Source: Prostheceraeus crozeri (Eukaryota; Platyhelminthes; Polycladida; Euryleptidae). From it: a stretch of DNA of 64,000 nucleotides. A model generated the notes under the pieces. The model was not told where the DNA came from and searched no databases. It was given only the letters and a program-made list of their open reading frames with translations. Location: assembly GCA_907163375.1 (NCBI GenBank), contig CAJQUW010001866.1, positions 1,116,001 to 1,180,000 of the forward strand, in the 5' to 3' direction. Positions 2,103 to 64,000 of the stretch are shown piece after piece. Within the stretch, counting starts at the first letter, position 1, and each line of letters opens with the position of its first letter. A program made the position numbers and the translations under genes.

Positions 2103-2305
2103 CCATAGAAATCGATTGTTTATCTGAAGTTTACTAGAATGGAAGATGACTGAAGGTCACGGAACATCCGAGGGAACTAAGTTGGGGCATGAGCAACCAA
2201 TGAAAAGTCTAGAATTTCACACTTGACTGATTCTAACCTAATGATGTAGCCGTTGACAAGTGTATCTAAGTAAAAATGCATGCAATTTTGTGCCACTATT
2301 ATGTA

Positions 2306-3944
2306 CAGATTGTTTCATAAAAAATGGATCACCCTTAAACATCGCCTTAACTTCAACTTTGTCTAAATCCGCCAAACTTGAACGAATTTCTCTGAAATTT
2401 GGAAGATATGTCAGTTGTGCTTACTAATATCATTGTTGGAAATTTCAAGCATGAATATTGAGTTGTTTTCCTGTTATAGATAAAAAAGTAGTAGATAATT
2501 TGATCTTCATTTAGCAATGTTACATAAAATCATACCTCACTCTTATAAAATTACATTTGTTTCCTTTGTTATGTAATATGTTGTTCTACAAGCCAAAAGC
2601 TGTCAAGCAAAACAAAAATAAAGAAAATCGGTCAATCAGAGCCAGTATAGCACCAGTATTCATCAACAATAATGTAACTGCTACATGTGATTAACTGGAC
2701 TTCATGTTCCATAGCTTCCTGACTTCGTTGCGGTGGTGTTGGCAGCACTCCTGATTGCTTTCAGCTAGAAATCTATCTCTTACCGGTTGAAAACAATACA
2801 AAGCACAAATGAACAATAACGAGATCGCATTCACCAAAGGAAAAGTGTCAGGGTTTTCTTTGCGAGCTACAAGCAAGCGACTAAATGTCCCTTACACAAA
2901 TGTGCATCGATGGCATAATGATGATTTTCGACTGTCGTAAAGAGGGCTCTGGTCGTCGACGCAAAACATCCAAACATAGAGACCGCATAATTTTGAGATT
3001 TGTTAAAGTTGATCCAAGTCTCTCGTTAACTGAGATGGCTGCACTAGTCTCGTCTATTTCTAAGTCCACTTTTCGTAGAAGACTTATTGAGTCGAATTTC
3101 AAGAGCTGTAAGAGGCCCTCTCAGATCGAATTATCAGATCAGCATACAAAAAGACGTCTCAGATGGGCAATGAGTCATTTTCACTGGCAAAATCAATGGG
3201 ATCGGGTTGTCTGGTCTGATGAGGCATCAGTCCGTCTGAAGGATAGTGATGGTCGATTGAGATTATGGATGAAATCTGATCAGGAAATTCCGAGACATTT
3301 ACATCGTCCCCGGGTACAAGGTGGTGCGACTCTACTGATTTAGGCTGGCATTTGGACCAATGGCCGCTCTGAACTTCACATACAGCAAGGAACCATGAAT
3401 TCTGAACGCTATGTGAATGTCTTACGAATGAACATTGGCCAAATGACAGATCAACTTGGTAATCCATCGACTTAGTTATTTATGGATGATAATGCTACGT
3501 GTCACAGGAATAGTAGAGTCAACTTATGCAAGTCTCAATTAGGACTTAGGACATTATCTTGGCCAGCTCGTTCTCCTGATCTGAATCCCATAGAAAATGT
3601 ATGGAGTATTCTAAAACGTAACGTTCGTCGTTCACTGCTACCTACAGATGGCGTATCACAACTTACGTCACTGTTAAAAAGAGAGTGGAGAAAGTTAGAT
3701 CAGTCAAAAATCAACGATATCATCGAATCAATGCATAGATGAATTGGTAATGTCATTGACAATAAGGGTAGGGCCACAAAATATTAGCTTCTTAAGAACC
3801 GTTACTGTATCATAGCTTATCAGATTATATAAGGACATTTAAATATATTAGGGACATGAAATAACATGAAAAATGCTTTCTGTATCATACTTATGTTTTA
3901 TTTAGTCAAATTTTAGGCTGATCCGCTTTTTATGAAACGGACTG
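2306..3944 (+). mobile_element. Tc1/mariner transposon, copy 1 (defective)
   Basis: The element starts CAGATTGTTTCATAAAAAAT and ends with the imperfect inverted complement, flanked by TA on both sides (2,304-2,305 and 3,945-3,946), the expected Tc1/mariner TA duplication. It is about 1.64 kb long. It matches the copies at 16.3 and 25.4 kb along its length but carries several inactivating mutations in the transposase. It lies inside a small hAT-like MITE; an unoccupied paralogous site is visible at about 56.1 kb. Confidence 0.93.
2809..3760 (+). pseudogene. Tc1 transposase pseudogene, copy 1
   Basis: This is the same DD34E transposase as the intact copy at 16,756, but broken. A 2-nt loss near 2,929 (GACTG against GGCTCTG in the intact copies) shifts the frame after the first helix-turn-helix. 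Two Trp codons have become TAG, at 3,341-3,343 and 3,473-3,475. A late Arg codon has become TGA at 3,740-3,742. The catalytic context WSDEAS and the MDDNATCH and NPIENVW blocks are still readable in separate open segments (2,885-3,343 and 3,482-3,742). It cannot encode an active enzyme, but its ends might still be mobilised in trans. Confidence 0.93.
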
Positions 3945-4008
3945 TATTACATGAAGCTTTACTTCTATTCTAGAGGCTTTATCGTTATCAATTTCGATGG
4001 GTGCCAAC

Positions 4009-11693: not shown

Positions 11694-11995
11694 TTCAATT
11701 CTTTCTTCCTCTTCTTCTTTGTCTTCTACCCTCTTCTTCCTCATCTTCCTCGTCTCCTTCCTCTTCATCTCCTTCTTCTACTTAATCTTCTTATACTTCC
11801 TTTTTTCTTCTCCTTCGTCCTATTCGTCTCCTTCACTTTCTTCTCTCTCTTTTTCCTCATCTTCCTCGTCCCCTTCTTCGTCTAATTCTTCTTTTTCTTA
11901 TCCTCATGCTTCTTCTTCTTCTTCCTCGTCTCCTTCCTTTTCATCTCCTTCTTCTACTTCATCTTCTTACGCTTCCTTTTCTTCCTTTTAGTTTA
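11694..11995. repeat. Polypyrimidine tract (TTC/CTT-rich)
   Basis: The plus strand is almost purely C and T, mostly irregular CTT/TTCC units. Open frames rich in Ser, Phe, Leu or (antisense) Glu, Lys and Arg are a by-product of composition. Such a tract could form triplex DNA. Confidence 0.9.
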
Positions 11996-13321: not shown

Positions 13322-13530
13322 TATCTTTCTTCATTTTCTCTTCTTCTCCTTCTTCTTCTCCTCCTTCTTCTTCTCCTTCTTCTTTTCCTTCTTCTTCTTT
13401 TCCTTCTTCTTCTTTTCCTTCTTCTTCTCCTTCTTCTTCTCCTTCTTTTTTTTTCCTCTTCTTCTCCTTCTTCTTTCTCTGCTTCCTCTGCTTCTTCTTC
13501 TACTTTTCCCACTCCTTCTTCTTCTTCAAG
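13322..13530. repeat. (CTT)n-rich polypyrimidine tract 3
   Basis: Nearly regular TTC/CTT repeats on the plus strand. All three plus frames and a minus frame of Arg/Lys/Glu stay open through it, which is compositional and not coding. Confidence 0.92.
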
Positions 13531-13760: not shown

Positions 13761-14274
13761 ATGAGAAACATACATTTCTTAGATAAGGCAATAACAAAGT
13801 TCGGGCTCGCAAGATTTCATTTTCCACTTTTCACCATCTTCCCATGATCTCTAAACTCTTCAGCGGCCGAAGTGGATGTAGTTAAAGCAAATCTGAAATA
13901 TTTTTATCAGAGTTTCCGATTGGCATAGTTGATCACTTGAACCAGATGATCTCGTATTAAATTGCAGACCTGCAATGACTGACTCTCGTGATATTCCCCC
14001 ATGTAGTGGTCATTTAAGGACGTTCGTGATTCATCAATTAAGTTCAACAACTCATGAGAGCATCTCCGATTCATTCTTGAGAGATGGTAGAGGAAATACA
14101 GCTAATCGCGTGAAAAACTGAGGAGTTATTACATTTCTGAAATTCCCCGAGACAACAGCAAAGAGATAACATGAGACTGACGTCCGGTAGAATGATGATA
14201 TTTGGGAGAATAAGAGCATAGAACTCCTTCATTGAGAGAGAGAGAGAGTCCCATTCTATACTCATTTTTGTTTA
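13761..14274. other. No gene recognised
   Basis: Nothing supported except a short (GA)n run near 14,233-14,249. Confidence 0.4.
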
Positions 14275-14276
14275 TA

Positions 14277-15457
14277 CAGTCCGTTTCATAAAAAGTGGAT
14301 CATCCTAAAATTTGATTAAATAAAACATAAGTATGATACAGAAAGCATTTTTCATGTTATTTCATGTCCCTAATATATTTAAATGTCCTTATATAATCTG
14401 ATAAGCTATGATACAGTAACGGTTCTTAAGAAGCTAATATTTTGTGGCCCTACCCTTATTGTCAATGACATCACCAATTCGTCTAGGCATTGATTCGATG
14501 ATATCGCATCAATCATCATATCGTATGCCTCATCAGACCAGACAACCCGATCCCATTGATTTGGCTAGTGACAATGACTCATTGCCCATCTGAGATGTCT
14601 TTTTGTATGCTGATCTGATAATTCGATCTGAGAGGGCCTCTTACAGCTCTTGAAATTCGACTCAATAAGTCTTCTACGAATAGTGGACTTAGAAATAGAC
14701 GAGTCTAGTGCAGCCATCTCAGTTAACAGTTAATGAGAGACTTGGATCAACTTTAACAAATCTCAAAATTATGCGGTCTCTACGTTTGGATGTTTTGCGT
14801 GGACGGCCAGAGCCCTCTTTACGACAGAGTCGAAAATCATCATTATGCCATCGATGCACATTTGTGTAAGGGACATTTAGTCGCCTGCTTGTAGCTCGCA
14901 AAGAAAACCCTAGTTCTAGCAAGGCTGACACTTTTCCTTTGGTGAATGCGATCTCGTTATTGTTCATTTGTGCTTTGTATTGTTTTCAACCGGTAAGAGA
15001 TAGATTTGCAATCAGGAGTGCTGCCAACACCACCGCAACGAAGTCAGGAAGCTATGGAACATGAAGTCCAGTTAATCACATGTAGCAGTTACATTATTGT
15101 TGATGAATACTGGTGCTATACTGGCTCTGATTGACCGATTTTCTTTATTTTTGTTTTGCTTGATAGCTTTTGGCTTGTAGAACAACATATTACATAACAA
15201 AGGAAACAAATGTAATTTTATAAGAGTGAGGTATGATTTTGTGTAACATTGCTAAATGAAGATCAAATTATCTACTACTTTTTTATCTATAACAGGAAAA
15301 CAACTCAATATTCATGCTTGAAATTTCCAACAATGATATTAGTAAGCACAACTGACATATCTTCCAAATTTCAGAGAAATTCGTTCAAGTTTGGCGGAGT
15401 TAGACAAAGTTGAAGTTAAGGCGATGTTTAAGGGTGATCCATTTCTTATGAAACAAT
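14277..15457 (-). mobile_element. Tc1/mariner transposon, copy 2 (internally deleted)
   Basis: Oriented on the minus strand. The 3' terminal repeat starts at 14,277 after TA, and the 5' terminal repeat ends near 15,457 (…GAAACAATCT, with the outermost G lost). The length is about 1.18 kb against 1.64 kb for full copies. The interior jumps from the sequence just after the WSDEA region to near the C-terminus, with about 20 bp of filler between. It retains a 15-bp segment that all other copies here lack, so it belongs to a different lineage. Confidence 0.92.
14480..14967 (-). pseudogene. Tc1 transposase pseudogene, copy 2
   Basis: Starts MNNNEIAFTKGKVSALLELG at 14,967. The helix-turn-helix keeps ALLEL, missing in the other three copies, and the linker reads GSGRPRKTS, a canonical GRPR AT-hook-like motif (GRRR in the others). 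A 7-bp duplication of TTAACTG near 14,727 shifts the frame after residue 80. The catalytic core from shortly after the first Asp to near the C-terminus is deleted. It is dead but informative about the ancestral sequence. Confidence 0.9.
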
Positions 15458-15459
15458 CT

Positions 15460-16120: not shown

Positions 16121-16253
16121 TTAAGCCTCGTTCACACGATGACATTAGTGTCGTGACATTAGTGCCGAGGCGCAGGACGAAATCTAGGCTAAATCAATGT
16201 CGTGACACCAACCGTTCAGACGCTTAATAAACAGTGTTGTGACACTGCTACTA

Positions 16254-17893
16254 AGATTGTTTCATAAAAAATGGATCACCCTTAAACATCGCCTTAACTT
16301 CAACTTTGTCTAAATCCGCCAAACTTGAACGAATTTCTCTGAAATTTGGAAGATATGTCAGTTGTGCTTACTAATATCATTGTTGGAAATTTCAAGCATG
16401 AATATTGAGTTGTTTTCCTGTTATAGATAAAAAAGTAGTAGATAATTTGATCTTCATTTAGCAATGTTACATAAAATCATACCTCACTCTTTTAAAATTA
16501 CATTTGTTTCCTTTGTTATGTAATATGTTGTTCTACAAGCCAAAAGCTGTCAAGCAAAACAAAAATAAAGAAAATCGGTCAATCAGAGCCAGTATAGCAC
16601 CATTATTCATCAACAATAATGTAACTGCTACATGTGATTAACTGGACTTCATGTTCCATAGCTTCCTGACTTCGTTGCGGTGGTGTTGGCAGCACTCCTG
16701 ATTGCTTTCAGCTTGAAATCTATCTCTTACCGGTTGAAAACAATACAAAGCACAAATGAACAATAACGAGATCGCATTCACCAAAGGAAAAGTGTCAGGG
16801 TTTTCTTTGCGAGCTACAAGCAAGCGACTAAATGTCCCTTACACAAATGTGCATCGATGGCATAATGATGATTTTCGGCTCTGTCGTAAAGAGGGCTCTG
16901 GCCGTCGACGCAAAACATCCAAACATAGAGACCGCATAATTTTGAGATTTGTTAAAGTTGATCCAAGTATCTCGTTAACTGGGATGGCTGCACTAGACTC
17001 GTCTATTTCTAAGTCCACTATTCGTAGAAGACTTATTGAGTCGAATTTCAAGAGCTGCAAGAGGCCCTCTCAGATCGAATTATCAGATCAGCATACAAAA
17101 AGACGTCTCAGATGGGCAATGAGTCATTTTCACTGGCAAAATCAATGGGATCGGGTTGTCTGGTCTGATGAGGCATCAGTCCGTCTGAAGGATAGTGATG
17201 GTCGATTGAGATTATGGATGAAATCTGATCAGGAAATTCCGAGACATTTACATCGTCCCCGGGTACAAGGTGGTGCGACTCTACTGATTTGGGCTGGCAT
17301 TTGGACCAATGGCCGCTCTGAACTTCACATGCAGCAAGGAACCATGAATTCTGAACGCTATGTGAATGTCTTACGAATGAACATTGGCCAAATGACAGAT
17401 CAACTTGGTAATCCATCGACTTGGTTATTTATGGATGATAATGCTACGTGTCACAGGAATAGTAGAGTCAACTTATGCAAGTCTCAATTAGGGCTTAGGA
17501 CATTATCTTGGCCAGCTCGTTCTCCTGATCTGAATCCCATAGAAAATGTATGGAGTATTCTAAAACGTAACGTTCGTCGTTCACTGCTACCTACAGATGG
17601 CGTATCACAACTTACGTCACTGTTAAAAAGAGAGTGGAGAAAGTTAGATCAGTCAAAAATCAACGATATCATCGAATCAATGCCTAGACGAATTGGTAAT
17701 GTATATTGACAATAAGGGTAGGGCCACAAAATATTAGCTTCTTAAGAGCCGTTGCTGTATCATAGCTTATCAGATTATATAAGGACATTTAAATATATTA
17801 GGGACATGAAATAACATGAAAATGCTTTCTGTATCATACTTATGTTTTATTTAGTCAAATTTTAGGATGATCCACTTTTTATGAAACGGACTG
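16254..17893 (+). mobile_element. Tc1/mariner transposon, copy 3 (intact ORF)
   Basis: About 1.64 kb, between TA at 16,252-16,253 and TA at 17,894-17,895. Ends are AGATTGTTTCATAAAAAAT (the first C of the terminal repeat is missing) and the inverted ATGAAACGGACTG. It lies within the Harbinger remnant. It is nearly identical to copy 4 at 25.4 kb: I saw about a dozen single-base differences, indicating recent transposition. Confidence 0.95.
16756..17709 (+). CDS. Tc1/mariner DD34E transposase (intact, 317 aa)
   Basis: Cut-and-paste transposase. It binds the element's terminal repeats and moves the element into TA sites in nuclear DNA. Residues 1-40 form a first helix-turn-helix (FSLRATSKRLNVPYTNVHRW), then a basic GSGRRRKTS linker at 47-55 and a second helix-turn-helix at about 58-110. 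The RNase-H-like catalytic triad is D138 (WSDEA), D228 (FMDDNATCH) and E263 (NPIENVW), with 34 residues between the last two. At 317 aa it is slightly short of the usual 340 for Tc1. A shared loss of five residues (ALLEL) after S14 sits inside the first helix region; whether activity survives is unknown. The start was chosen because it matches the other copies and begins the conserved block. Confidence 0.95.
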   Translation: MNNNEIAFTKGKVSGFSLRATSKRLNVPYTNVHRWHNDDFRLCRKEGSGRRRKTSKHRDRIILRFVKVDPSISLTGMAALDSSISKSTIRRRLIESNFKSCKRPSQIELSDQHTKRRLRWAMSHFHWQNQWDRVVWSDEASVRLKDSDGRLRLWMKSDQEIPRHLHRPRVQGGATLLIWAGIWTNGRSELHMQQGTMNSERYVNVLRMNIGQMTDQLGNPSTWLFMDDNATCHRNSRVNLCKSQLGLRTLSWPARSPDLNPIENVWSILKRNVRRSLLPTDGVSQLTSLLKREWRKLDQSKINDIIESMPRRIGNVY

Positions 17894-17901
17894 TAGTATT
17901 A

Positions 17902-24699: not shown

Positions 24700-25380
24700 G
24701 TCAGTCAAAATACGGATCATGTCAAATGCGCTCAGTGGATGACCGCTCCATCCTTTCTGACCTTGCGTCTCTTTAACAGTCAGTTATCTGTGGACCACAT
24801 GCACAGAACCCATCTGTCTAATGTAGACTACATTATGTGACAGTCATGCCGACATTCATTTTAGCTGTCAAACAGTCGATTCATCAAAACTCAACGTCAG
24901 TTTTTCATTTCAATGTTTATGTGTCTATGGAAATAATGCAGAGATTTTTCACATCTGATCGTGCATCATACTTGAAGGAATCAGGCATCTGGTTTCACAA
25001 TTGACAACTTGAATGACTAAAACTTGTTTCTGTTCAAGTTTGCGACACTGCATCTTGCCTGGAGCATTCACCTACATGTACACTACATGCGGGTGGTAGT
25101 TCAGTTCTCGTCATTATCAATTCGAAGATCTAAGAAGAAGTATTAGATAACATCCGCCGCAATCCTGCATCAAACCCTGTTCATTGTCACAATTCCAACG
25201 TCTTCTTTCATTCCGAAATGGAATTTCCCGTATTGCAAGGAAAAAGGTACATGGATAATACTACTACAACAGAAGCAAATCAATATACCAACACCATGAG
25301 ATTTTAATACTGGATTGAGAAGATAAATGACTGAGTAACTATATGCCTCACGCCGGATGCGTAAATAGTGCAACCACAGA
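24700..25380. other. No gene recognised
   Basis: Nothing supported before the Tc1 at 25,381. Confidence 0.4.
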
Positions 25381-27021
25381 CAGATTGTTTCATAAAAAAT
25401 GGATCACACTTAAACATCGCCTTAACTTCAACTTTGTCTAAATCCGCCAAACTTGAACGAATTTCTCTGAAATTTGGAAGATATGTCAGTTGTGCTTACT
25501 AATATCATTGTTGGAAATTTCAAGCATGAATATTGAGTTGTTTTCCTGTTATAGATAAAAAAGTAGTAGATAATTTGATCTTCATTTAGCGATGTTACAC
25601 AAAATCATACCTCACTCTTATAAAATTACATTTGTTTCCTTTGTTATGTAATATGTTGTTCTACAAGCCAAAAGCTGTCAAGCAAAACAAAAATAAAGAA
25701 AATCGGTCAATCAGAGCCAGTATAGCACCAGTATTCATCAACAATAATGTAACTGCTACAAGTGATTAACTGGACTTCATGTTCCATAGCTTCCTGACTT
25801 CGTTGCGGTGGTGTTGGCAGCACTCCTGATTGCTTTCAGCTAGAAATCTATCTCTTACCGGTTGAAAACAATACAAAGCACAAATGAACAATAACGAGAT
25901 CGCATTCACCAAAGGAAAAGTGTCAGGGTTTTCTTTGCGAGCTACAAGCAAGCGACTAAATGTCCCTTACACAAATGTGCATCGATGGCATAATGATGAT
26001 TTTCGGCTCTGTCGTAAAGAGGGCTCTGGCCGTCGACGCAAAACATCCAAACATAGAGACCGCATAATTTTGAGATTTGTTAAAGTTGATCCAAGTATCT
26101 CGTTAACTGAGATGGCTGCACTAGACTCGTCTATTTCTAAGTCCACTATTCGTAGAAGACTTATTGAGTCAAATTTCAAGAGCTGCAAGAGGCCCTCTCA
26201 GATCGAATTATCAGATCAGCATACAAAAAGACGTCTCAGATGGGCAATGAGTCATTTTCACTGGCAAAATCAATGGGATCGGGTTGTCTGGTCTGATGAG
26301 GCATCAGTCCGTCTGAAGGATAGTGATGGTCGATTGAGATTATGGATAAAATCTGATCAGGAAATTCCGAGACATTTACATCGTCCCCGGGTACAAGGTG
26401 GTGCGACTCTACTGATTTGGGCTGGCATTTGGACCAATGGCCGCTCTGAACTTCACATACAGCAAGGAACCATGAATTCTGAACGCTATGTGAATGTCTT
26501 ACGAATGAACATTGGCCAAATGACAGATCAACTTGGTAATCCATCGACTTGGTTATTTATGGATGATAATGCTACGTGTCACAGGAATAGTAGAGTCAAC
26601 TTATGCAAGTCTCAATTAGGGCTTAGGACATTATCTTGGCCAGCTCGTTCTCCTGATCTGAATCCCATAGAAAATGTATGGAGTATTCTAAAACGTAACG
26701 TTCGTCGTTCACTGCTACCTACAGATGGCGTATCACAACTTACGTCACTGTTAAAAAGAGAGTGGAGAAAGTTAGATCAGTCAAAAATCAACGATATCAT
26801 CGAATCAATGCCTAGACGAATTGGTAATGTATATTGACAATAAGGGTAGGGCCACAAAATATTAGCTTCTTAAGAGCCGTTTCTGTATCATAGCTTATCA
26901 GATTATATAAGGACATTTAAATATATTAGGGACATGAAATAACATGAAAATGCTTTCTGTATCATACTTATGTTTTATTTAGTCAAATTTTAGGATGATC
27001 CACTTTTTATGAAACGGACTG
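25381..27021 (+). mobile_element. Tc1/mariner transposon, copy 4 (intact ORF)
   Basis: A full copy of about 1.64 kb with both terminal repeats complete: CAGATTGTTTCATAAAAAAT at the left and ATGAAACGGACTG at the right. TA follows at 27,022-27,023; the base pair before the left end is GA, so one side of the duplication has mutated or differed. It inserted beside a dispersed repeat also seen at 4.5 kb. Confidence 0.94.
25884..26837 (+). CDS. Tc1/mariner DD34E transposase (intact, 317 aa)
   Basis: Second open transposase, differing from the copy at 16,756 at three residues: E76 instead of G76, I155 instead of M155, I192 instead of M192. The triad D138, D228, E263 and both helix-turn-helix regions are unchanged. 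E76 is shared with the older copy at 2.8 kb and is probably ancestral. Like that copy it lacks the ALLEL segment kept by the deleted copy at 14.9 kb. With intact terminal repeats and an open ORF this is the best candidate for an active element in the window; expression and activity cannot be judged from sequence. Confidence 0.95.
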   Translation: MNNNEIAFTKGKVSGFSLRATSKRLNVPYTNVHRWHNDDFRLCRKEGSGRRRKTSKHRDRIILRFVKVDPSISLTEMAALDSSISKSTIRRRLIESNFKSCKRPSQIELSDQHTKRRLRWAMSHFHWQNQWDRVVWSDEASVRLKDSDGRLRLWIKSDQEIPRHLHRPRVQGGATLLIWAGIWTNGRSELHIQQGTMNSERYVNVLRMNIGQMTDQLGNPSTWLFMDDNATCHRNSRVNLCKSQLGLRTLSWPARSPDLNPIENVWSILKRNVRRSLLPTDGVSQLTSLLKREWRKLDQSKINDIIESMPRRIGNVY

Positions 27022-27029
27022 TATATTGC

Positions 27030-37401: not shown

Positions 37402-38236
37402 GAACAATGTCACTGTTTCAGATGTCAATGTCATTTGTTTGTCTGAGGAGAAACTTGAAGGGAATGTGCTTTCAGACAGCGTTATTTTGTTTTCTTGTAA
37501 TTTTCAAAGCTAGCCGAATTTGTTTTGTGTCCGCAGATTTAGTAGAGTTTCCTGTCAAGCAATCGCTATCATTTACGGGCATCTAGTCTTGTCGATAAGA
37601 AGTGAAATTTCGTCTTGTCAGATATAATCATTATAACAGAAAGGTGAACACAAATATTCCTCAAAATTGTGTTTTTACATTTCACGACAATTCTCAGCGG
37701 ACAGATCGTCTGAAATATCATTCTTAGAGACGAAATATATCAGCGACTGCGATACTACAAATGAAAGTCTATTTTCTTTTTTTCAACGATTGGATTAACA
37801 AATAATAACAGCAAATTTTTAGTCAACGCGATCAAGAAAGTGAAAGAGGAAAATTGTTTGTCACTCTTTGCAATTCATCATTTTGCAAATCACTGATAAG
37901 ATTCATCGTTGATTAAATATCATGCGCTTAGCTGAGAAGAAATCAAAAACACCGGATAACAGAGCAGAGCGTATTTGCTTTCTCTAATGAGCCGAAACAG
38001 AAGGATAGAATTGACTTCAAAAATCAAATGAAATGTCAAACCTGTCATGAAATTTCACATTATCCCATTGCCTCTTGCTTGGCGTTTGATCGCTGCCACG
38101 ATGATGTAGCAAGAAATTACGTAATTAAAGCTATTTTCCCCCGAGGATGGAGGGGTTCCTCCCCTTACGCATTGCTTGATATTGTTACAAAACTGCGGCT
38201 TATTTTTGCGCATCTGCAACCAATGAATAGACATAA
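37402..38236. other. No gene recognised
   Basis: Nothing supported. Confidence 0.4.
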
Positions 38237-38239
38237 TAA

Positions 38240-38463
38240 GCTCATACGCTGACAATCACAGACAACGATTCAAACAAAACAATAACAATTATGAAAAACA
38301 AGTATTCAAACACTTTTAAGAAAAGAGATCTACCATTAAGAGATTTACCAAACCCTAGGTCTTAATGGTGAATCTCTCTCTTCTTAGAAGTGTCCGAATA
38401 ATTGTTTTCCATAATTGTTATTGTTTTGCTGGAATCGTTGTTCGTCATTGTCAGCGTATGAGC
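38240..38463. mobile_element. Tourist-like MITE (224 bp), TAA target duplication
   Basis: Arms of about 100 bp are imperfect inverted complements, beginning GCTCATACGCTGACAAT at both ends. The flanks are TAA at 38,237-38,239 and 38,464-38,466. A 3-bp TWA duplication fits the PIF/Harbinger group. No coding capacity. The inner loop is only a few bases, so the element would form an almost complete hairpin. Its ends differ from those of the Harbinger remnant at 16,124. Confidence 0.85.
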
Positions 38464-38466
38464 TAA

Positions 38467-39200
38467 TTATGTTCCAAAACTACTATAGATACAACTTAAA
38501 TTCTTCGTAGCTTTAAGTTTCTATGCATTTCAGAGCATTGATCAAAAATCCTAGTCAAGTTTGACCCGTAGAACATCAAATACAAGTACGAGTATTATTG
38601 ACCTTTTTAAAAAAAACTTTTTGCAAATGGAGAATTTTTGTCAATTTTCTGCAAAATCAAGCAGACCATTGGCAAAGTACAAGATGAAGTCATCAGTACA
38701 CTGTAAACCACTCACTACCAAACACATACGAAGGATGGATACCAAAATATACTGACTTATGTTGTTTTGTTGTTTTTAATCAGCCAATCAGAGAAGGAGT
38801 TGTTCGCATCGTTGTACACTGTAAACTGTAAGCAGCCACCTAACAGATAATTCATCAGCCAAATCAGTATTTTAGCTGATGCTGCGCATAATCAGACAAA
38901 TTTCATGCCTATCAGACAGCTTTTGTCTCATCGCTCGGACCAAGCGTTATACACTAAGAACGCTGACTTTTATTTTCTCAAATGGCATAGAAATCCACAT
39001 GTACAATGATTGGTTAATTTTTACAAGTAGTATTAAAGGCTCTAACTTATAAGTGGCGTCCAGATTGGGAACACGGATCCTGCACATCAATTTTGAAGAT
39101 TATTTAGTATGACCTCCTCTTCTACTTCATATCAAGCGATTACCAAAAACTAAAATTTTACAAAACGGTCATGCGATCCAGCAGCGATGTATACAAACGA
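38467..39200. other. No gene recognised
   Basis: Nothing supported. Confidence 0.4.
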
Positions 39201-57125: not shown

Positions 57126-57132
57126 GATGATT

Positions 57133-57151
57133 AGTAAGTAAGTAAGTAAGT
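57133..57151 (-). repeat. LINE 3' tail, (TTAC)n
   Basis: Plus-strand GTAAGTAAGTAAGTAAGT marks the 3' end of the minus-strand LINE. Microsatellite tails in place of poly(A) are known in the CR1/Jockey group. Confidence 0.8.
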
Positions 57152-57292
57152 GTTTTATTTCAAGTTGAATGAAAATCAAGACAGTCATATACACAAATCA
57201 TATACAGATTACATAGTCATATCACAAATTTTCACATACACAAGTAAAGAAGACCGAAAAATAAATGCATACAAACTGAGATCATTTTACAT

Positions 57293-59070
57293 CTACATAT
57301 CATTTAAAATATCGTTAAAGTGTACACACAGTTGCTGAAGTAAAAATGGGAAAAAAGATCTGGCATATTTTTCAGTACGGATACATGGGAAAACGAATCT
57401 GTTCGACCGTTGAGATCTTTCAGGCAGAAGGTCTCTCAAGATGTGATTTTGGTCGTTTTCAATCTGTCTGAAAAGTTTCAAAGAATGTTGCAATCGTCTA
57501 TGTATAGTATCGTCACACTTATTACACTTTGAAACACCATCATAAATTATACGATGTGCTCGGTTTTCAATAGTTGAAAGTATTCTACAATGCTTTTTAG
57601 AGAGCCCAACAAATGTTTCACATGCGTAGTCTAAAACAGAGCGGATAATGGCTACATATACATCATGTAATTGATTTGCAGAAATAAGTGATTTTAAACG
57701 TCTGATGATATGCAAGCGTCTGCTACACTTTATTCGCAAATAATCTACGCGGTCGTCCCAAGTTAACTTATTATTCATACAGACTCCGAGATACTTGATG
57801 GACTTCACGTAGTTTACAGAGAAAGAAAAATTGTCTAAGGAAACAGGAGATCGAGAAACAATCATCACATTAGACTTTTTTGTATTTAGTCTCAAAAAGT
57901 TTTTTGCGCACCACAATTCAACATTCTCTATTTCACGATTAACCGTAGAGCGAATGTCATCAATATCGTGTTTTGGTAAAGGAATGATTACACTTATATC
58001 ATCAGCATATTTAAGTATTACATTATTCACTGAGGTACTATGTAAGTCACTAACATATAGGCAAAAAAGAAAAGGGGCTAAAACGGATCCTTGTGGTACT
58101 CCGCAAGTAATGCTCACAGATCGGGAATACACATCCTTTAACTTCAGGAAAGTGGTTCTATTTTCACAGAATGATTTCAACCATATAATGAGCTCGATAG
58201 GGAAATTCAAAGTCTGCAATTTCTCAAATAACACATTGTAATTTACACAATCGAACGCCTTTGACAAATCACAGCTCAAGACTGCGCAACCAAAATTCTG
58301 CCTTTCATCGATGATGCGTAATGATGTATCTAGTAACTTCAAAATGGCTGTTGTAGTCGAGGCACCTTTCCTGAAACCATGCTGTTCGAGGCCATAATTT
58401 ATATAGAACATGTCTGCAAAACGATTGAGTACAATTCGTTCCAAAATCTTCGCTAGAGGAGGAAAGATCGAGATGTATCGCAGATTGTTTATATCAGGCG
58501 GTTGACTTTTAGGTATTGGGACTGTGACACTAATTTTCCAACTCGCAGGAAAAGTCAATGTTGACAGTGAGCAATTAAATATATGTGTTAACGGTTCAGA
58601 AATAACGTCCGCCAGAAATCTATAAATTCTAGTCGGAACTAGATCAAACCCGGATGACTTTTTGAGAGGCATATTGGACAGCATTTTTCTTACTTCTGAG
58701 GTATCAATTGTAGGATACCAGCTTTCGGACGGTGCGGTATCAATGAATCGATTAAGATTATTTTTAGGGAATGGGCTTGATAATGAGTCTGCCATTTTAT
58801 CAAGAAGTTGAATGATACTTCCATTTTCTTCAATTAGTGTAGTCCAATTATCTATCGTACTATTTTTGCCATCGTTCTTGTGTTTCGCTACGACTTTCCA
58901 TAGACCTTGTGAGGAGCTGTTCATAATCTTGTTTGCCCAAATTTGTTTTGCAGTTAAAATTTCTTGCTTTACTTTCATTTTCAATTCATTATCTGTTCCA
59001 ATTTCTTGTTCTATAGGCATTCCATTTCTCATTGATTAGGTATTTAGTCAATGGGGTCATCCATTCTTTG
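57293..59070 (-). pseudogene. LINE ORF2: linker and reverse transcriptase (RT open, frame broken upstream)
   Basis: The RT copies the element's RNA into the genome at an endonuclease nick (target-primed reverse transcription). An open stretch of about 565 codons (about 58,995 to 57,293) holds DLVPTRIYRFLADVI, the LAKILERIVLNRF block, GLEQHGFRKGASTTTAILK, CDLSKAFDCVNY (first catalytic Asp), CGVPQGSVLAPFLFCLYV, KYADDISVI (catalytic DD), KYLGVCMNNKLTWDDRV and a basic C-terminal region. Upstream, DKEWMTPLTKYLINEKW is in a different frame: about one base is missing near 58,997, so the apparent start MRNGMPIEQE is an out-of-frame artefact. The linker matches the fragment at 42.2 kb. Confidence 0.9.
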
Positions 59071-59080
59071 TCGTTCTGGG

Positions 59081-60336
59081 TTATTATCACATCGGGGGTG
59101 GGCAGTGAAGAGTGAATACAGAGCGCTTAGCGTGGCTTACGGGAGATGAGAGAGCTCCCATTGTTAAGTCTTGATGTATGAGGCGAAGTTTGTGTAAAGG
59201 CGGATTACATATTTATCACACAGCGATTACATCTTTATGGGATTCGAGGATGAACAGGATCTGTTTACTTGTGGGAATCGAAAAGGCAAAGATTGATGAA
59301 CAGGATTTGTTTACATGTGAGGATCGCAAAAAGCATACTGTATTTATTGATGTGATGAATTTAATGACAGGATCTGTTTACATATGGGAAACGCAACAAT
59401 TGAATGATATCTGATTTATCTTTGTGACATATCTTTCAAGACATATCATTACCTATTCAGTATTTTGTCAGCCACTATGTGTGGGACCGCGCTCGTCTGG
59501 GTTTGAGTGTTCAGGTTAGGGGTCGAAACACAACTAGACGAGTACCTGCTGATGACTGACGGACTGCAGTATTATGTTTTATATCCCTTAATCGGTAACT
59601 GAAGTAGTGGTCGATGTATTGTAATTCAAATGAAGAAATGTGGAATTACATGAAGTAGGCCTACTATAGACGGATGAAGAAACTGGCGATAACAAATTCA
59701 AGTGAAGAAATAGTATTTTCCATGTGTAGTCTTAGGTATAGTGTGTATAGTTTCATTGCTTTCGGTGTAGTAGAGTGTCATTGTAATTCTATTGTTTACC
59801 TCCATTATCCACTTTCCACTTATCCACTTTGTGTAGTGTCAGATATAGTTCACTTGTAATCAGTGTAGTAGCATCGTTGTATTTCCATATTTTACCTCCA
59901 CTTTTCCAATTTTTATTCATCGGTTTCCTGTTGTTTTATAATATCCATTTTTTAATTTCCTTAACCTATGGTGACCATTGTCTTATTCTATTTCCACTAT
60001 CAGCATCTGTAGTCGGTACAGTATATTAGAAGTCTGTTTTGAACGTGTATACGGCAGTGTTTGGAATCTATGGTATTAGTATATCAACAGCAAGAATGAG
60101 TAGTATTACAAGTCTTAAGATTTCCATTTTTACCAGATATTGGGCCAAAGCTGATCAATTTTAATTCGTTGCCACGAGAAAGCTACATTGAGTTCTTTTA
60201 AGAACTGATTAATCCAATGGTTACAGTAGCATTGCCTTTGTACACTTGCGGATTGGAGAACGCCATCAATCCTCCTTAGGACTACTTTAACTAATAATTT
60301 AAATTAGTAAGCATTATATTCTATTATAAATGGCTA
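59081..60336. mobile_element. 1.26-kb insertion of unknown type in the LINE
   Basis: LINE coding stops matching between the SHTMMK segment (about 60,350) and the NDKEW segment (about 59,075). CTGGG flanks the insert on both sides (59,076-59,080 and 60,337-60,341), a candidate 5-bp target duplication. The ends are not obviously inverted (TTATTATCACATCGG against TAGCCATTTATAATAG on the other strand). No ORF with a recognised domain is inside. A 5-bp duplication would fit an LTR-type or other DDE element, but TG/CA ends are not seen, so the type is open. Confidence 0.55.
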
Positions 60337-60344
60337 CTGGGATG

Positions 60345-60652
60345 ACTTTCATCATCGTATGAGAATCAACAGAAGGGATGTAAGTATTAATGAAATATAT
60401 TAGATGTTCCTGGAAATAGTGAGCTTTTGTATTAACATCGTCTGATTTCTGTAATAGTCCCATCCAGTCAAAGTTACATACTTGGAAAAATAAAGCATCT
60501 AGGTTCGATTGTCTGAAATCATAAAGCTTGTGAGACTGCACATTTATCTCATTAGGCTTCAAAAGATAACAATTTGATGGATAACAAGTTAACATTAGAT
60601 GATCAGAATTTCCCAGTGGGGCATTGTACTGTACGTTTTTGGCATCATATAC
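60345..60652 (-). pseudogene. LINE endonuclease, C-terminal part
   Basis: Reads VYDAKNVQYNAPLGNSDHLM and continues into the linker (LYDFRQSNLDALFFQVCNFD). SDH is the last catalytic motif of the APE-type endonuclease that nicks target DNA. It is cut from the rest of the domain by the tRNA-like array. The open frame starting at 60,763 reads through the last tRNA-like copy and into this segment, which is a fusion artefact. Confidence 0.88.
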
Positions 60653-60675
60653 TTTTAACAGACGGAAAATAGCTG

Positions 60676-60748
60676 CGCGTCTTGGTGGATTTGAACCACC
60701 GACCTCTGGCATTCTAGGCCAACGCTCTACCAACTGAGCTATCGACGA
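60676..60748 (-). tRNA. tRNA-like gene, array copy 1 (anticodon position AGA)
   Basis: The minus strand folds as D arm GCTC-AGTTGGTA-GAGC, anticodon arm TTGGC-CTAGAAT-GCCAG with AGA at positions 34-36, 5-nt variable loop AGGTC, and T arm GGTGG-TTCAAAT-CCACC. The A box TAGCTCAGTTGG and B box GGTTCAAATCC match the RNA polymerase III consensus, and TTTT follows 7 nt after the end. Problems: in the acceptor stem only positions 2-5 pair with 68-71. AGA would mean Ser, but Ser tRNAs have a long variable arm, missing here. So it is probably a transcribable tRNA-like or pseudo-tRNA and not a working tRNA-Ser. Confidence 0.65.
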
Positions 60749-60963
60749 GCGACAGAACGACATAAGTCCTCAATTGAAGAACCCGCGTAGGAGAATCCGA
60801 TAGCTTCATCCTCCAAGACAACATAGCATTAACCGTCAAGCCAAACTACTGAAGCAAGTTATCAGTAATTCAAAGCCAGCATTATACTTTGAAACGGGGA
60901 CTTAGTCCACACAAGTATTCAAAGAAAGCTGCAATGATAATTTTAACAGACGGAAAATAGCTG

Positions 60964-61036
60964 CGCGTCTTGGTGGATTTGAACCACCGACCTCTGGCAT
61001 TCTAGGCCAACGCTCTACCAACTGAGCTATCGACGA
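60964..61036 (-). tRNA. tRNA-like gene, array copy 2
   Basis: Identical to array copy 1 (60,676-60,748), including A and B boxes and TTTT terminator. Confidence 0.65.
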
Positions 61037-61251
61037 GCGACAGAACGACATAAGTCCTCAATTGAAGAACCCGCGTAGGAGAATCCGATAGCTTCATCCT
61101 CCAAGACAACATAGCATTAACCGTCAAGCCAAACTACTGAAGCAAGTTATCAGTAATTCAAAGCCAGCATTATACTTTGAAACGGGGACTTAGTCCACAC
61201 AAGTATTCAAAGAAAGCTGCAATGATAATTTTAACAGACGGAAAATAGCTG

Positions 61252-61324
61252 CGCGTCTTGGTGGATTTGAACCACCGACCTCTGGCATTCTAGGCCAACG
61301 CTCTACCAACTGAGCTATCGACGA
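61252..61324 (-). tRNA. tRNA-like gene, array copy 3
   Basis: Identical to array copy 1. Confidence 0.65.
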
Positions 61325-61539
61325 GCGACAGAACGACATAAGTCCTCAATTGAAGAACCCGCGTAGGAGAATCCGATAGCTTCATCCTCCAAGACAACAT
61401 AGCATTAACCGTCAAGCCAAACTACTGAAGCAAGTTATCAGTAATTCAAAGCCAGCATTATACTTTGAAACGGGGACTTAGTCCACACAAGTATTCAAAG
61501 AAAGCTGCAATGATAATTTTAACAGACGGAAAATAGCTG

Positions 61540-61612
61540 CGCGTCTTGGTGGATTTGAACCACCGACCTCTGGCATTCTAGGCCAACGCTCTACCAACTG
61601 AGCTATCGACGA
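61540..61612 (-). tRNA. tRNA-like gene, array copy 4
   Basis: Identical to array copy 1. Confidence 0.65.
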
Positions 61613-61827
61613 GCGACAGAACGACATAAGTCCTCAATTGAAGAACCCGCGTAGGAGAATCCGATAGCTTCATCCTCCAAGACAACATAGCATTAACCGT
61701 CAAGCCAAACTACTGAAGCAAGTTATCAGTAATTCAAAGCCAGCATTATACTTTGAAACGGGGACTTAGTCCACACAAGTATTCAAAGAAAGCTGCAATG
61801 ATAATTTTAACAGACGGAAAATAGCTG

Positions 61828-61900
61828 CGCGTCTTGGTGGATTTGAACCACCGACCTCTGGCATTCTAGGCCAACGCTCTACCAACTGAGCTATCGACGA
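61828..61900 (-). tRNA. tRNA-like gene, array copy 5
   Basis: Identical to array copy 1. Confidence 0.65.
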
Positions 61901-62115
61901 GCGACAGAACGACATAAGTCCTCAATTGAAGAACCCGCGTAGGAGAATCCGATAGCTTCATCCTCCAAGACAACATAGCATTAACCGTCAAGCCAAACTA
62001 CTGAAGCAAGTTATCAGTAATTCAAAGCCAGCATTATACTTTGAAACGGGGACTTAGTCCACACAAGTATTCAAAGAAAGCTGCAATGATAATTTTAACA
62101 GACGGAAAATAGCTG

Positions 62116-62188
62116 CGCGTCTTGGTGGATTTGAACCACCGACCTCTGGCATTCTAGGCCAACGCTCTACCAACTGAGCTATCGACGA
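62116..62188 (-). tRNA. tRNA-like gene, array copy 6
   Basis: Identical to array copy 1. Confidence 0.65.
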
Positions 62189-62403
62189 GCGACAGAACGA
62201 CATAAGTCCTCAATTGAAGAACCCGCGTAGGAGAATCCGATAGCTTCATCCTCCAAGACAACATAGCATTAACCGTCAAGCCAAACTACTGAAGCAAGTT
62301 ATCAGTAATTCAAAGCCAGCATTATACTTTGAAACGGGGACTTAGTCCACACAAGTATTCAAAGAAAGCTGCAATGATAATTTTAACAGACGGAAAATAG
62401 CTG

Positions 62404-62476
62404 CGCGTCTTGGTGGATTTGAACCACCGACCTCTGGCATTCTAGGCCAACGCTCTACCAACTGAGCTATCGACGA
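62404..62476 (-). tRNA. tRNA-like gene, array copy 7
   Basis: Identical to array copy 1. Confidence 0.65.
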
Positions 62477-62691
62477 GCGACAGAACGACATAAGTCCTCA
62501 ATTGAAGAACCCGCGTAGGAGAATCCGATAGCTTCATCCTCCAAGACAACATAGCATTAACCGTCAAGCCAAACTACTGAAGCAAGTTATCAGTAATTCA
62601 AAGCCAGCATTATACTTTGAAACGGGGACTTAGTCCACACAAGTATTCAAAGAAAGCTGCAATGATAATTTTAACAGACGGAAAATAGCTG

Positions 62692-62764
62692 CGCGTCTTG
62701 GTGGATTTGAACCACCGACCTCTGGCATTCTAGGCCAACGCTCTACCAACTGAGCTATCGACGA
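62692..62764 (-). tRNA. tRNA-like gene, array copy 8
   Basis: Identical to array copy 1. Confidence 0.65.
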
Positions 62765-62979
62765 GCGACAGAACGACATAAGTCCTCAATTGAAGAACCC
62801 GCGTAGGAGAATCCGATAGCTTCATCCTCCAAGACAACATAGCATTAACCGTCAAGCCAAACTACTGAAGCAAGTTATCAGTAATTCAAAGCCAGCATTA
62901 TACTTTGAAACGGGGACTTAGTCCACACAAGTATTCAAAGAAAGCTGCAATGATAATTTTAACAGACGGAAAATAGCTG

Positions 62980-63052
62980 CGCGTCTTGGTGGATTTGAAC
63001 CACCGACCTCTGGCATTCTAGGCCAACGCTCTACCAACTGAGCTATCGACGA
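62980..63052 (-). tRNA. tRNA-like gene, array copy 9
   Basis: Identical to array copy 1. It is the first copy met when reading the LINE 5' to 3'; only 35 bp of its upstream spacer remain before the junction at 63,087/63,088, so its 5' flank differs from the other eight. Confidence 0.65.
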
Positions 63053-63087
63053 GCGACAGAACGACATAAGTCCTCAATTGAAGAACC

Positions 63088-63660
63088 ATTTGAAGAACCT
63101 TGAGATATGTCATTTGAGATCAGCAGGTGGTCTAAGATAGCGTTTTGCCTAGTCGGATTGATGATTATATCGCACATATCCATATCAGAACAAAACCTTG
63201 TCACATCAAAAGAGTTCAAATCACCAGCCAACATTAAATGATAATGAGGCTTAGTTACACAAAAGTCGTCAATCAACTTCACTAGATCGTTGTATATGTC
63301 ATTCAGTTTTGATGCGTTTAAACTTGGTGGGATGTACAAGCATAATAAACATAACTTGAACGAGGAAATATCAATAATCAGATATTCAGATTCATTTGGT
63401 AAATGGTACGATTCAGAAATATTAGAGAATGAAATATTCGATCTGAGAAACACTGCAACTCCACCACCTCTTCGGCAAGATCGGTCACTCCGACATGAAG
63501 TATATCCTGGAATATTGATCAGATCTGAATTTATTAGACTGCTCAGCCAGGTTTCTGTCACACAGATTATATTGGGAGATTTTAGAGAAGCAACAAGTTT
63601 CAGTTCGTCAATCTTTGGTAGTAAAGAACGTGCATTCAGTAACATAACGGTAGGATATGT
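63088..63660 (-). pseudogene. LINE endonuclease, N-terminal and central part
   Basis: APE-type endonuclease that nicks the target for retrotransposition. Motifs in order: LLNARSLLPKIDEL (catalytic Asn), ICVTETWLSS (catalytic Glu), RRGGGVAVFLRSNI, LMLAGDLNSFD (catalytic Asp and Asn) and AILDHLLISND. The domain is cut after QGSSN; the SDH motif resumes at 60,652. Across the array the frame is preserved (AAT codon at 63,090-63,088, next codon GTA at 60,652-60,650), so the insertion appears to have removed nothing. Confidence 0.9.
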
Positions 63661-63677
63661 TGAATCCTGTAAAACCT

Positions 63678-64000
63678 TTACCGAAAATTTGCATTGGGAT
63701 CTATCGTTACAACTTTGTTATTGCGGATGGTAACTTTTTCGCCAAGATCACGCCTTGCTTTCAATTCTTTTCTCAATAAAAAATTTCTGTCCCTTTCCAT
63801 TTTTGTATAGTCAGGATTTATGAACACTTTTGAATATTGAGGAAAGTCTTTAAGACTTCTCGCCTTTCGGAGAAGAGCAGTGCGATTATTTTCATCAACA
63901 CATTTAAATCTGAGAAGTCGACGTTTATCAGTATCAGATTTTCGTCCAATGCGATTTGAAGATTCCACCTCAATGTTATCCATTTCAAGAGCGTTACATA
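63678..64000 (-). CDS. LINE ORF1 protein, C-terminal part
   Basis: About 100 residues up to the stop at 63,678: RIGRKSDTDKRRLLRFKCVD, ALLRKARSLKDF, VFINPDYTKMERD and LLRKELKARRDLGEKV. The R-R-LLRF, LLRKAR and LRKELKARR blocks are typical of the C-terminal part of CR1/L2-type ORF1 proteins, which bind LINE RNA. Its N-terminus lies beyond the window. ORF1 ends about 30 bases before the first Met of the endonuclease frame, so ORF2 may be translated by reinitiation (inferred). Confidence 0.75.
   Translation of the reverse strand, partial: CNALEMDNIEVESSNRIGRKSDTDKRRLLRFKCVDENNRTALLRKARSLKDFPQYSKVFINPDYTKMERDRNFLLRKELKARRDLGEKVTIRNNKVVTIDPNANFR

Follow-up and report, generated by a model that had tools for sequence, protein, structure and literature searches.

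A tandem array of tRNA-like units inside a LINE as a probable retroposed copy of a short non-autonomous element

Introduction

How does a tandem array of identical tRNA-like units come to lie inside the endonuclease region of a LINE? The question is raised by one locus in a 64,000-nucleotide stretch of flatworm DNA, the whole of which is referred to here as the window. An initial annotation, made from the sequence, had described nine tRNA-like sequences in identical 288-bp units, had read them as a recently amplified array within a retrotransposon frame, and had suggested a new class of mobile or circle-derived RNA polymerase III satellite.

Results

The array and its tRNA-like domain

Exact 288-bp periodicity was measured by script at 60653-63087 (8 x 288 + 131 = 2435 bases), and the full units were mutually identical (8/8). 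Tandem Repeats Finder, run on the window, gave a period of 288 and 8.5 copies at 60649-63087, and Rfam returned nine tRNA matches on the minus strand, each of 47.1 bits against a gathering score of 29 (E 6.2e-7). These results confirmed that the array described in the initial annotation is real in the sequence. Positions along the unit are numbered here on the tRNA-sense (minus) strand with u1 at 63087; in RNA orientation the array runs from its 5' end at 63087 through eight full units (u1-288) and a terminal u1-131 to its 3' end at 60653. The tRNA-like part occupies u36-108. By Rfam match and alignment, that of the first unit lies at 62980-63052 on the minus strand, and eight more follow at 288-bp steps, the last at 60676-60748. 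The unit has a GC content of 44% and stop codons in all six frames, so that no long frame crosses the array.

ARAGORN, run on the window, did not report the tRNA-like sequences of the array, and relaxed settings drew other, poor cloverleaves. Three of the seven acceptor-stem pairs are non-standard, and the anticodon, AGA, sits in a body with a short variable loop, which we take to be class I; serine tRNAs have a long variable arm. The tRNA-like part thus has neither the paired acceptor stem nor the isotype-consistent body of a functional tRNA, and a cluster of functional tRNAs was rejected on these two points. They also make it extremely improbable that the locus is an ordinary tandem tRNA gene array, moved as DNA or misassembled; homogeneous single-tRNA arrays do exist, as described for Hydractinia and Nippostrongylus (PMC11067881, PMC5765664), but misassembly is, in addition, hard to square with 178 exact junction matches on many contigs (see below).

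In 17 diverged units, change per site was 0.019 in the tRNA-like part against 0.028 in the spacer, some of the source contigs looking error-rich. The consensus unit holds intact boxes A and B, TAGCTCAGTTGG and GGTTCAAATCC; in the same diverged units box B was changed at 9 of 186 sites and box A at 2 of 204. Judged from these sequences, there is no clear sign of selection in the tRNA-like part or in the boxes.

The host LINE and its empty site

Both flanks of the array belong to one minus-strand LINE with an endonuclease (PF03372) and a reverse transcriptase (PF00078), and related proteins span the joined flanks as a single alignment (for example, residues 1-290 of P0121 at 56%). The endonuclease part upstream of the array, matched by PF03372, lies at 63100-63717 and the downstream part, recognised from the alignments across the joined flanks, at 60366-60652; both are open frame. 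The reverse transcriptase (57293-59085) has a frame change near 58991, and this LINE copy is therefore not intact even apart from its inserts. At its 3' end, AATAAA precedes an (ACTT)n tail at about 57130-57160. A genome search with 301 bases of LINE flank gave 20 matches, at least 14 of which, window included, covered the whole flank or nearly so at 98-100% identity; as judged from sequence, the host LINE is a member of a young family.

The empty site, ATATCTCAA/GTATATGATG, is uninterrupted in ten of the 12 LINE loci that were fetched, one of the ten (L054) differing by a single base next to it; the remaining two were the window itself and one locus unread by the word search. From these ten array-free copies it follows that the array was inserted together with a 12-nt filler, without target duplication or loss. 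The filler lies at the 5' junction (63088-63099, minus strand) and, by alignment and comparison with the empty site, is an imperfect second copy of the first bases of the array, resembling a template jump. The locus therefore arose by insertion into a LINE and not by a LINE jumping into a tRNA cluster. The inserted stretch given by the initial annotation, 60653-63087, stands, with the correction that the 12 bases of filler were also inserted.

A second insertion, of about 1.28 kb at 59086-60365 (bounds by eye and protein alignment), splits the same LINE between endonuclease and reverse transcriptase; a 3-bp duplication (GAT) may accompany it, and a motif near GAACAGGATCTGTTTAC occurs several times. 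Elsewhere in the window there are four Tc1-like copies, 95-99% alike (2288-3946, 14273-15459, 16237-17900 and 25380-27027), two of which keep an open 323-codon transposase frame (16738-17709 and 25866-26837). Their protein has a 97% identical counterpart, piece P0130 (60% of query), in a JGI contig. Among the proteins found by similarity to those of the window, the ones with a named source are distant (Holothuria 34%, Clonorchis 39%, Trichonephila about 35%). An imperfect palindrome at 38231-38472, 82% self-complementary over about 245 bp and with an extreme hairpin fold, is MITE-like, and long TTC-rich polypyrimidine tracts lie at 11704-11968 and 13327-13527.

Copies elsewhere in the genome

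The genome searched (G000) comprised 2.05 Gb in 14,165 contigs. The 288-bp unit gave at least 239 matches (37 of 93 candidates scored), and the many copies have other flanks, which bears out the suggestion that the unit is mobile. The listed matches all fall on a single strand of their respective contigs and do not include the array of the window, which reflects a limit of the search. Thirty-two stretches were fetched around these matches, giving a sample that consists of long copies; because the search required the linker u132-178, arrays with other linkers would be missed. Recent amplification, too, was supported. Of the 18 first-batch loci with a full unit, 16 have one or more units that match those of the window exactly, and 8 consist, as to full units, of nothing but such exact matches.

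Exact junction patterns gave 178 matches on many contigs, with 0 and 0 for the reversed controls. The pattern GTTAAAA-TTA-(A, C or G) accounted for 94 and GTTAAAA-notT for 84, the latter comprising A (69), C (10) and G (5, the window among them). The 178 include duplicates and internal variants: L057 and L059 are one event, and L086 and L107 are internal. Fifty of the 94 TTA-junction copies were fetched, the stretch lengths of about 1640, 800 and 310 bases biasing the sample towards short copies; the 5' end was readable in 39. The 11 set aside were L055, L063, L080, L083, L086, L095 and L103, cut by the fetched stretch, and L087 (about 19 nt of element), L059 (duplicate), L075 (broken) and L069 (two pieces). 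From the other pattern, 12 of the 84 were fetched as a tailed sample, of which 10 were usable (L107 being internal and L109 cut; the 5' end of L111 was placed by eye at about u280). Since the junction patterns pick the 3' end, these two samples are no test of that end.

Four exact patterns found no match among viral or prokaryote contigs. A plasmid or phage origin was rejected, the only matches, some 60 bases long, falling at tRNA genes or in unannotated places.

A fixed 3' end and scarce target duplications

Among the 26 arrays with a visible 3' end (window included, four duplicated arrays on C5440 counted once), 23 stop at u131 (GTTAAAA); the three exceptions end at u90, u107 and u174. Array ends as non-random as these argue for insertion via RNA rather than as pieces of a DNA circle, and lend no support to the circle-derived origin proposed earlier. 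The 3' flanks of the 23 begin with TT in 18 cases and with TTA in 13, TTA being found at 2-3% of control sites. Runs of A at the 3' end reach 23 (L009), and the first base past the run was T in all 11 fetched tailed copies, the internal L107 left out. The 5' ends were spread across the unit in the 26 unit-search arrays in which they are visible. The common 3' end, the free 5' end and the A tails point to target-primed, 5'-truncated retroposition by a LINE-type enzyme; target-site duplications, a further mark of that process, were found in a minority of copies.

Duplications of at least 7 bp occurred in 4 of 22 copies (mispaired controls 3.7%) and in 1 of 39 (mispaired controls 2.0%). Individual examples measure 17 bp (L033), 9 bp (L078), 8 bp (L038) and 12 bp (L019, in a local repeat), and one of 12 bp with one mismatch was seen by eye at L021; the insertion in the window has none. 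The scarcity of duplications suggests either an enzyme unlike the L1 type in second-strand cutting or repair of the second strand by end joining, and the element-like filler seen by eye at the junctions of the window, L028, L038 and L040 fits end joining. Annealing of the target to TTA at u132 had been considered as proof of an RNA extending past u131. It was dropped because TTA is present in the 5' copy of the target duplication at L021, L038 and L078, and a target preference together with an origin of the linker in the flank of a master insertion is preferred.

A search of the window brought to light no partner LINE sharing the element's 3' end: outside the array there is no convincing match to the unit, and the tail of the host LINE differs. 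A SINE of the host LINE was rejected on that tail, which is (ACTT)n and not GTTAAAA(A)n.

Two clusters of 5' ends

One cluster of 5' ends lies at u178-184, with 7 of the 26 unit-search arrays, 7 of the 39 junction copies and none of the 10 in the tailed sample; the first two samples come from different contigs. The clustering of 7 of 26 ends at u178-181 was matched in 0 of 20,000 uniform simulations, a null that overstates the significance because short copies dominate. In the sample of 39, which favours short copies, 22 measured 131 nt or less, 13 measured 132-288 nt and 4 were longer, and seven of the 39 formed a class of 236-241 nt. These seven longest single copies start at u179-184, with the tRNA-like part about 145 nt downstream, and six multi-unit arrays (L017, L019, L023, L024, L034 and L039) start at the same u178-184 point. 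On the strength of the peak and of the arrays that share it, u179 was taken as the approximate RNA start, the alternative being a preferred stopping site of the enzyme. In the window array (minus strand), a stretch equivalent to the full-length mobile element of about 241 nt that occurs singly elsewhere in the genome (u179-288 plus u1-131) lies at 62669-62909, and the 47-nt linker (u132-178) that separates monomers lies next to it at 62910-62956 and begins TTA like many target sites. The sequence TTTT at u115-118 (60666-60669 in the last unit, minus strand), a possible polymerase III stop, lies 13 nt before the 3' end of the element. The RNA polymerase III label found no support as worded: although the unit has both box A and box B, the longest monomers begin about 145 nt ahead of the tRNA-like part and extend beyond this candidate stop.

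The 5' ends also bear on a reading that is attractive on the window alone, namely a tandem LTR element of the TRIM/Helenus kind, with the tRNA-like part in its terminal repeat (R9-S8). The window array by itself reads R-S-R...R, with an R of 131 bp and an S of 157 bp, and tandem Helenus and TRIM arrays are described (PMC10886601, PMC6934838). R, however, lacks TG..CA, neither orientation shows TGG within the first 15 bases of S, the longest purine run before R is 4 or 8, and there is no adjacent 4-bp duplication. The other arrays begin at many points of the unit, which makes R an accident of a 5' end at u1, and it is on these free 5' ends that an LTR element was ruled out; we consider it very improbable.

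A second cluster lies at u92-95, with 11 of 49 junction-search copies (8 of 39 plus 3 of 10) and 1 of 26 in the unit-search sample of long copies. Its eight ends among the 39 comprise four at u94, one at u93 and three at u92, a position at which the match may be extended by a fortuitous A of the flanking DNA; of the neighbouring ends, none fell at u76-91 and one at u96-103. By standard tRNA numbering, we take u93 to be A58 of the T loop, and the sequence of the T arm, GUUCAAAUC, fits GUUCNANNC, the motif for methyl-1-adenosine 58. This modified base blocks reverse transcriptase, and a stop at u94 would be as expected from a methyl group on A58, whereas a stop caused by structure should fall ahead of the stem, at around u101. 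Since long arrays cross A58 many times, the methylation, if real, would be partial.

Sizes of the arrays and variation among units

Where both ends were seen, the arrays hold 8.45 units (window), 17.6 (L018) and 1.1 to 12 (the others), and most of the units examined are nearly identical. An array on C1668 runs from before 388,700 to about 415,770, more than 27 kb, with about 94 units or more that are mostly identical or nearly so; arrays on C2855 and C7241 reach the contig ends. At L039 each of the 8 units covering u118 has the change T118C; in L012 variant units are mixed with plain ones in blocks, and at L018 variants recur at intervals of three and six units. It seems that founder effects and subsequent exchange have both contributed. 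L031, L032, L035 and L037 lie near contig ends and have many single-base indels per unit, probably from assembly error, and their divergence was therefore not read as age.

The array L033 (C5440, 21500-31499), which has the 17-bp target duplication, is part of a segmental tandem repeat of 2-3 kb. On C5440 the four segmental array copies hold about 3.7, 5.7, 4.7 and 3.7 units, so that unit number must alter after insertion. Together with the three- and six-unit steps of L018 and the very great length of the C1668 array, these differences speak for a process in which each site received a retroposed piece of two or more units that afterwards expanded locally through unequal crossing-over or replication slippage. 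Such growth would still need a multi-unit RNA as its starter. Growth from single copies misfits the arrays studied, because these share one common linker (u132-178) rather than local flanks, the unit search having required that linker. We regard growth in place as the main source of the arrays as possible but doubtful.

The many identical units, and T118C in every covering unit of L039, as expected from one monomer, would also suit a circular, retrozyme-like template, in which reverse transcriptase runs repeatedly round a monomeric RNA circle at the target. Metazoan retrozymes are copied from circles in their authors' model (PMC7229834). Rfam, searched to E 5 with a stretch of more than two units on both strands, found no hammerhead or other known ribozyme, and the CTGANGA core of the hammerhead is absent; a ribozyme-bearing retrozyme was rejected on these results. 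The peak at u178-184 better fits a linear RNA starting there, and the mixture of variant and plain units in L012 also stands against a single circle. The unit RNA folds well (z -4.1), but this is unexceptional, as 9 of 120 control stretches from the window gave as low a z or lower, several of them in one palindrome; an imperfect inverted repeat inside the unit scored 41, with 200 shuffles reaching up to 42, and neither feature was used as evidence. A circular template appears unlikely to us.

Discussion

The likely answer, in our judgement, is that the unit derives from a short non-autonomous retroposon of about 241 nt that is copied by LINE-type target-primed reverse transcription, and that RNAs of several units are retroposed as ready-made arrays, the window array being one of them. 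The copying agent would be the enzyme of a LINE. The retroposon would carry its tRNA-like domain near the 3' end, and synthesis, primed at the target, would begin at the constant 3' end GTTAAAA(A)n, where the target site starts with T, TT or TTA, early stops often leaving 5'-truncated copies. At a master insertion, the element and 47 bp of its 3' flank would have been duplicated in tandem to form the 288-bp unit; the linker u132-178 is probably this flank, duplicated with the element, which is the simplest account of its TTA start. Transcripts reading through the array, each of several units, would then have been retroposed as whole arrays, and one such array would have entered the copy of the young LINE family seen in the window. 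We infer that the RNA was linear and multi-unit rather than circular.

A further reading is put forward more tentatively, as a possibility short of an even chance: the tRNA mimic at the 3' end would be folded and methylated at A58 by the tRNA enzyme of the host, which would set truncation points, while multi-unit transcripts spread as ready-made arrays and seed a satellite by retroposition, not by local duplication. Folding and methylation of the tRNA-like part would account for the 5' ends grouped at A58, and the mimic may be handled as a tRNA in the cell. If this were true, a modification carried by the RNA of a transposon would have left its fossil trace in DNA as the peak of 5' ends at A58.

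Retroposition of ready-made arrays is one suggested route by which satellites could be seeded at new chromosomal sites. The common RNA-type 3' end and the near-identical units in many different flanks, together with the empty site of the window insertion, make the seeding step datable and testable. A mobile tRNA-like element may also inflate the counts of tRNA genes in such genomes. A limited literature search found no tRNA-bearing retroposon spreading as arrays with a common RNA-type 3' end.

Comparison with known systems

Set beside related systems, as far as the sources describe them (PMC10886601, PMC7215508, PMC7229834, PMC11067881, PMC5765664, PMC6934838, PMC10702118), the element is nearest to metazoan retrozymes in behaviour, to SINEs in make-up and to TRIM/Helenus elements in looks. 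Metazoan retrozymes are described as tandem repeats of 150-450 bp in short arrays, with a GC content below 50% and a type I hammerhead (PMC7229834). By that account, the element resembles them in its short tandem arrays without LTR, primer-binding site or polypurine tract, in its GC content and in its self-paired RNA; it differs in its tRNA-like domain, in the lack of a detected hammerhead and in a 5'-end peak like that of a linear RNA. Helenus is defined by an LTR with a primer-binding site, a polypurine tract and, in animals, a 4-bp duplication (PMC10886601). With Helenus and the Cassandra TRIM, as described, the element shares the sequence of a small-RNA gene in a short element that forms tandem arrays, but the LTR hallmarks are absent from the window array and the ends misfit an integrase. 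The tRNA gene arrays described for Hydractinia, Nippostrongylus and Entamoeba have the same even spacing, near-identical units and one tRNA in each, whereas the tRNA of the element is degenerate and its arrays are mobile.

Like SINE2 elements, the element is short and non-autonomous, with boxes A and B, dispersed copies that have a common 3' end with an A-rich tail, and 5' truncation. It differs from them in that the tRNA-like part occupies about nt 146-218 of 241, close to the 3' end, with no tRNA-derived promoter at the 5' end; in that its apparent RNA start is far upstream of the boxes and its 3' end beyond TTTT; and in that target duplications are a minority and multi-unit copies common. 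A tRNA-Glu-derived tandem repeat of newts is reportedly likewise an array from a tRNA-related retroposon. The SINE-derived satellites of squamates, as presented in PMC10702118, are also satellite arrays from tRNA-related retroposons; set against the satellites of both groups as so described, the arrays of the element are themselves dispersed, have an RNA-type 3' end in common and consist of units that are nearly identical between loci.
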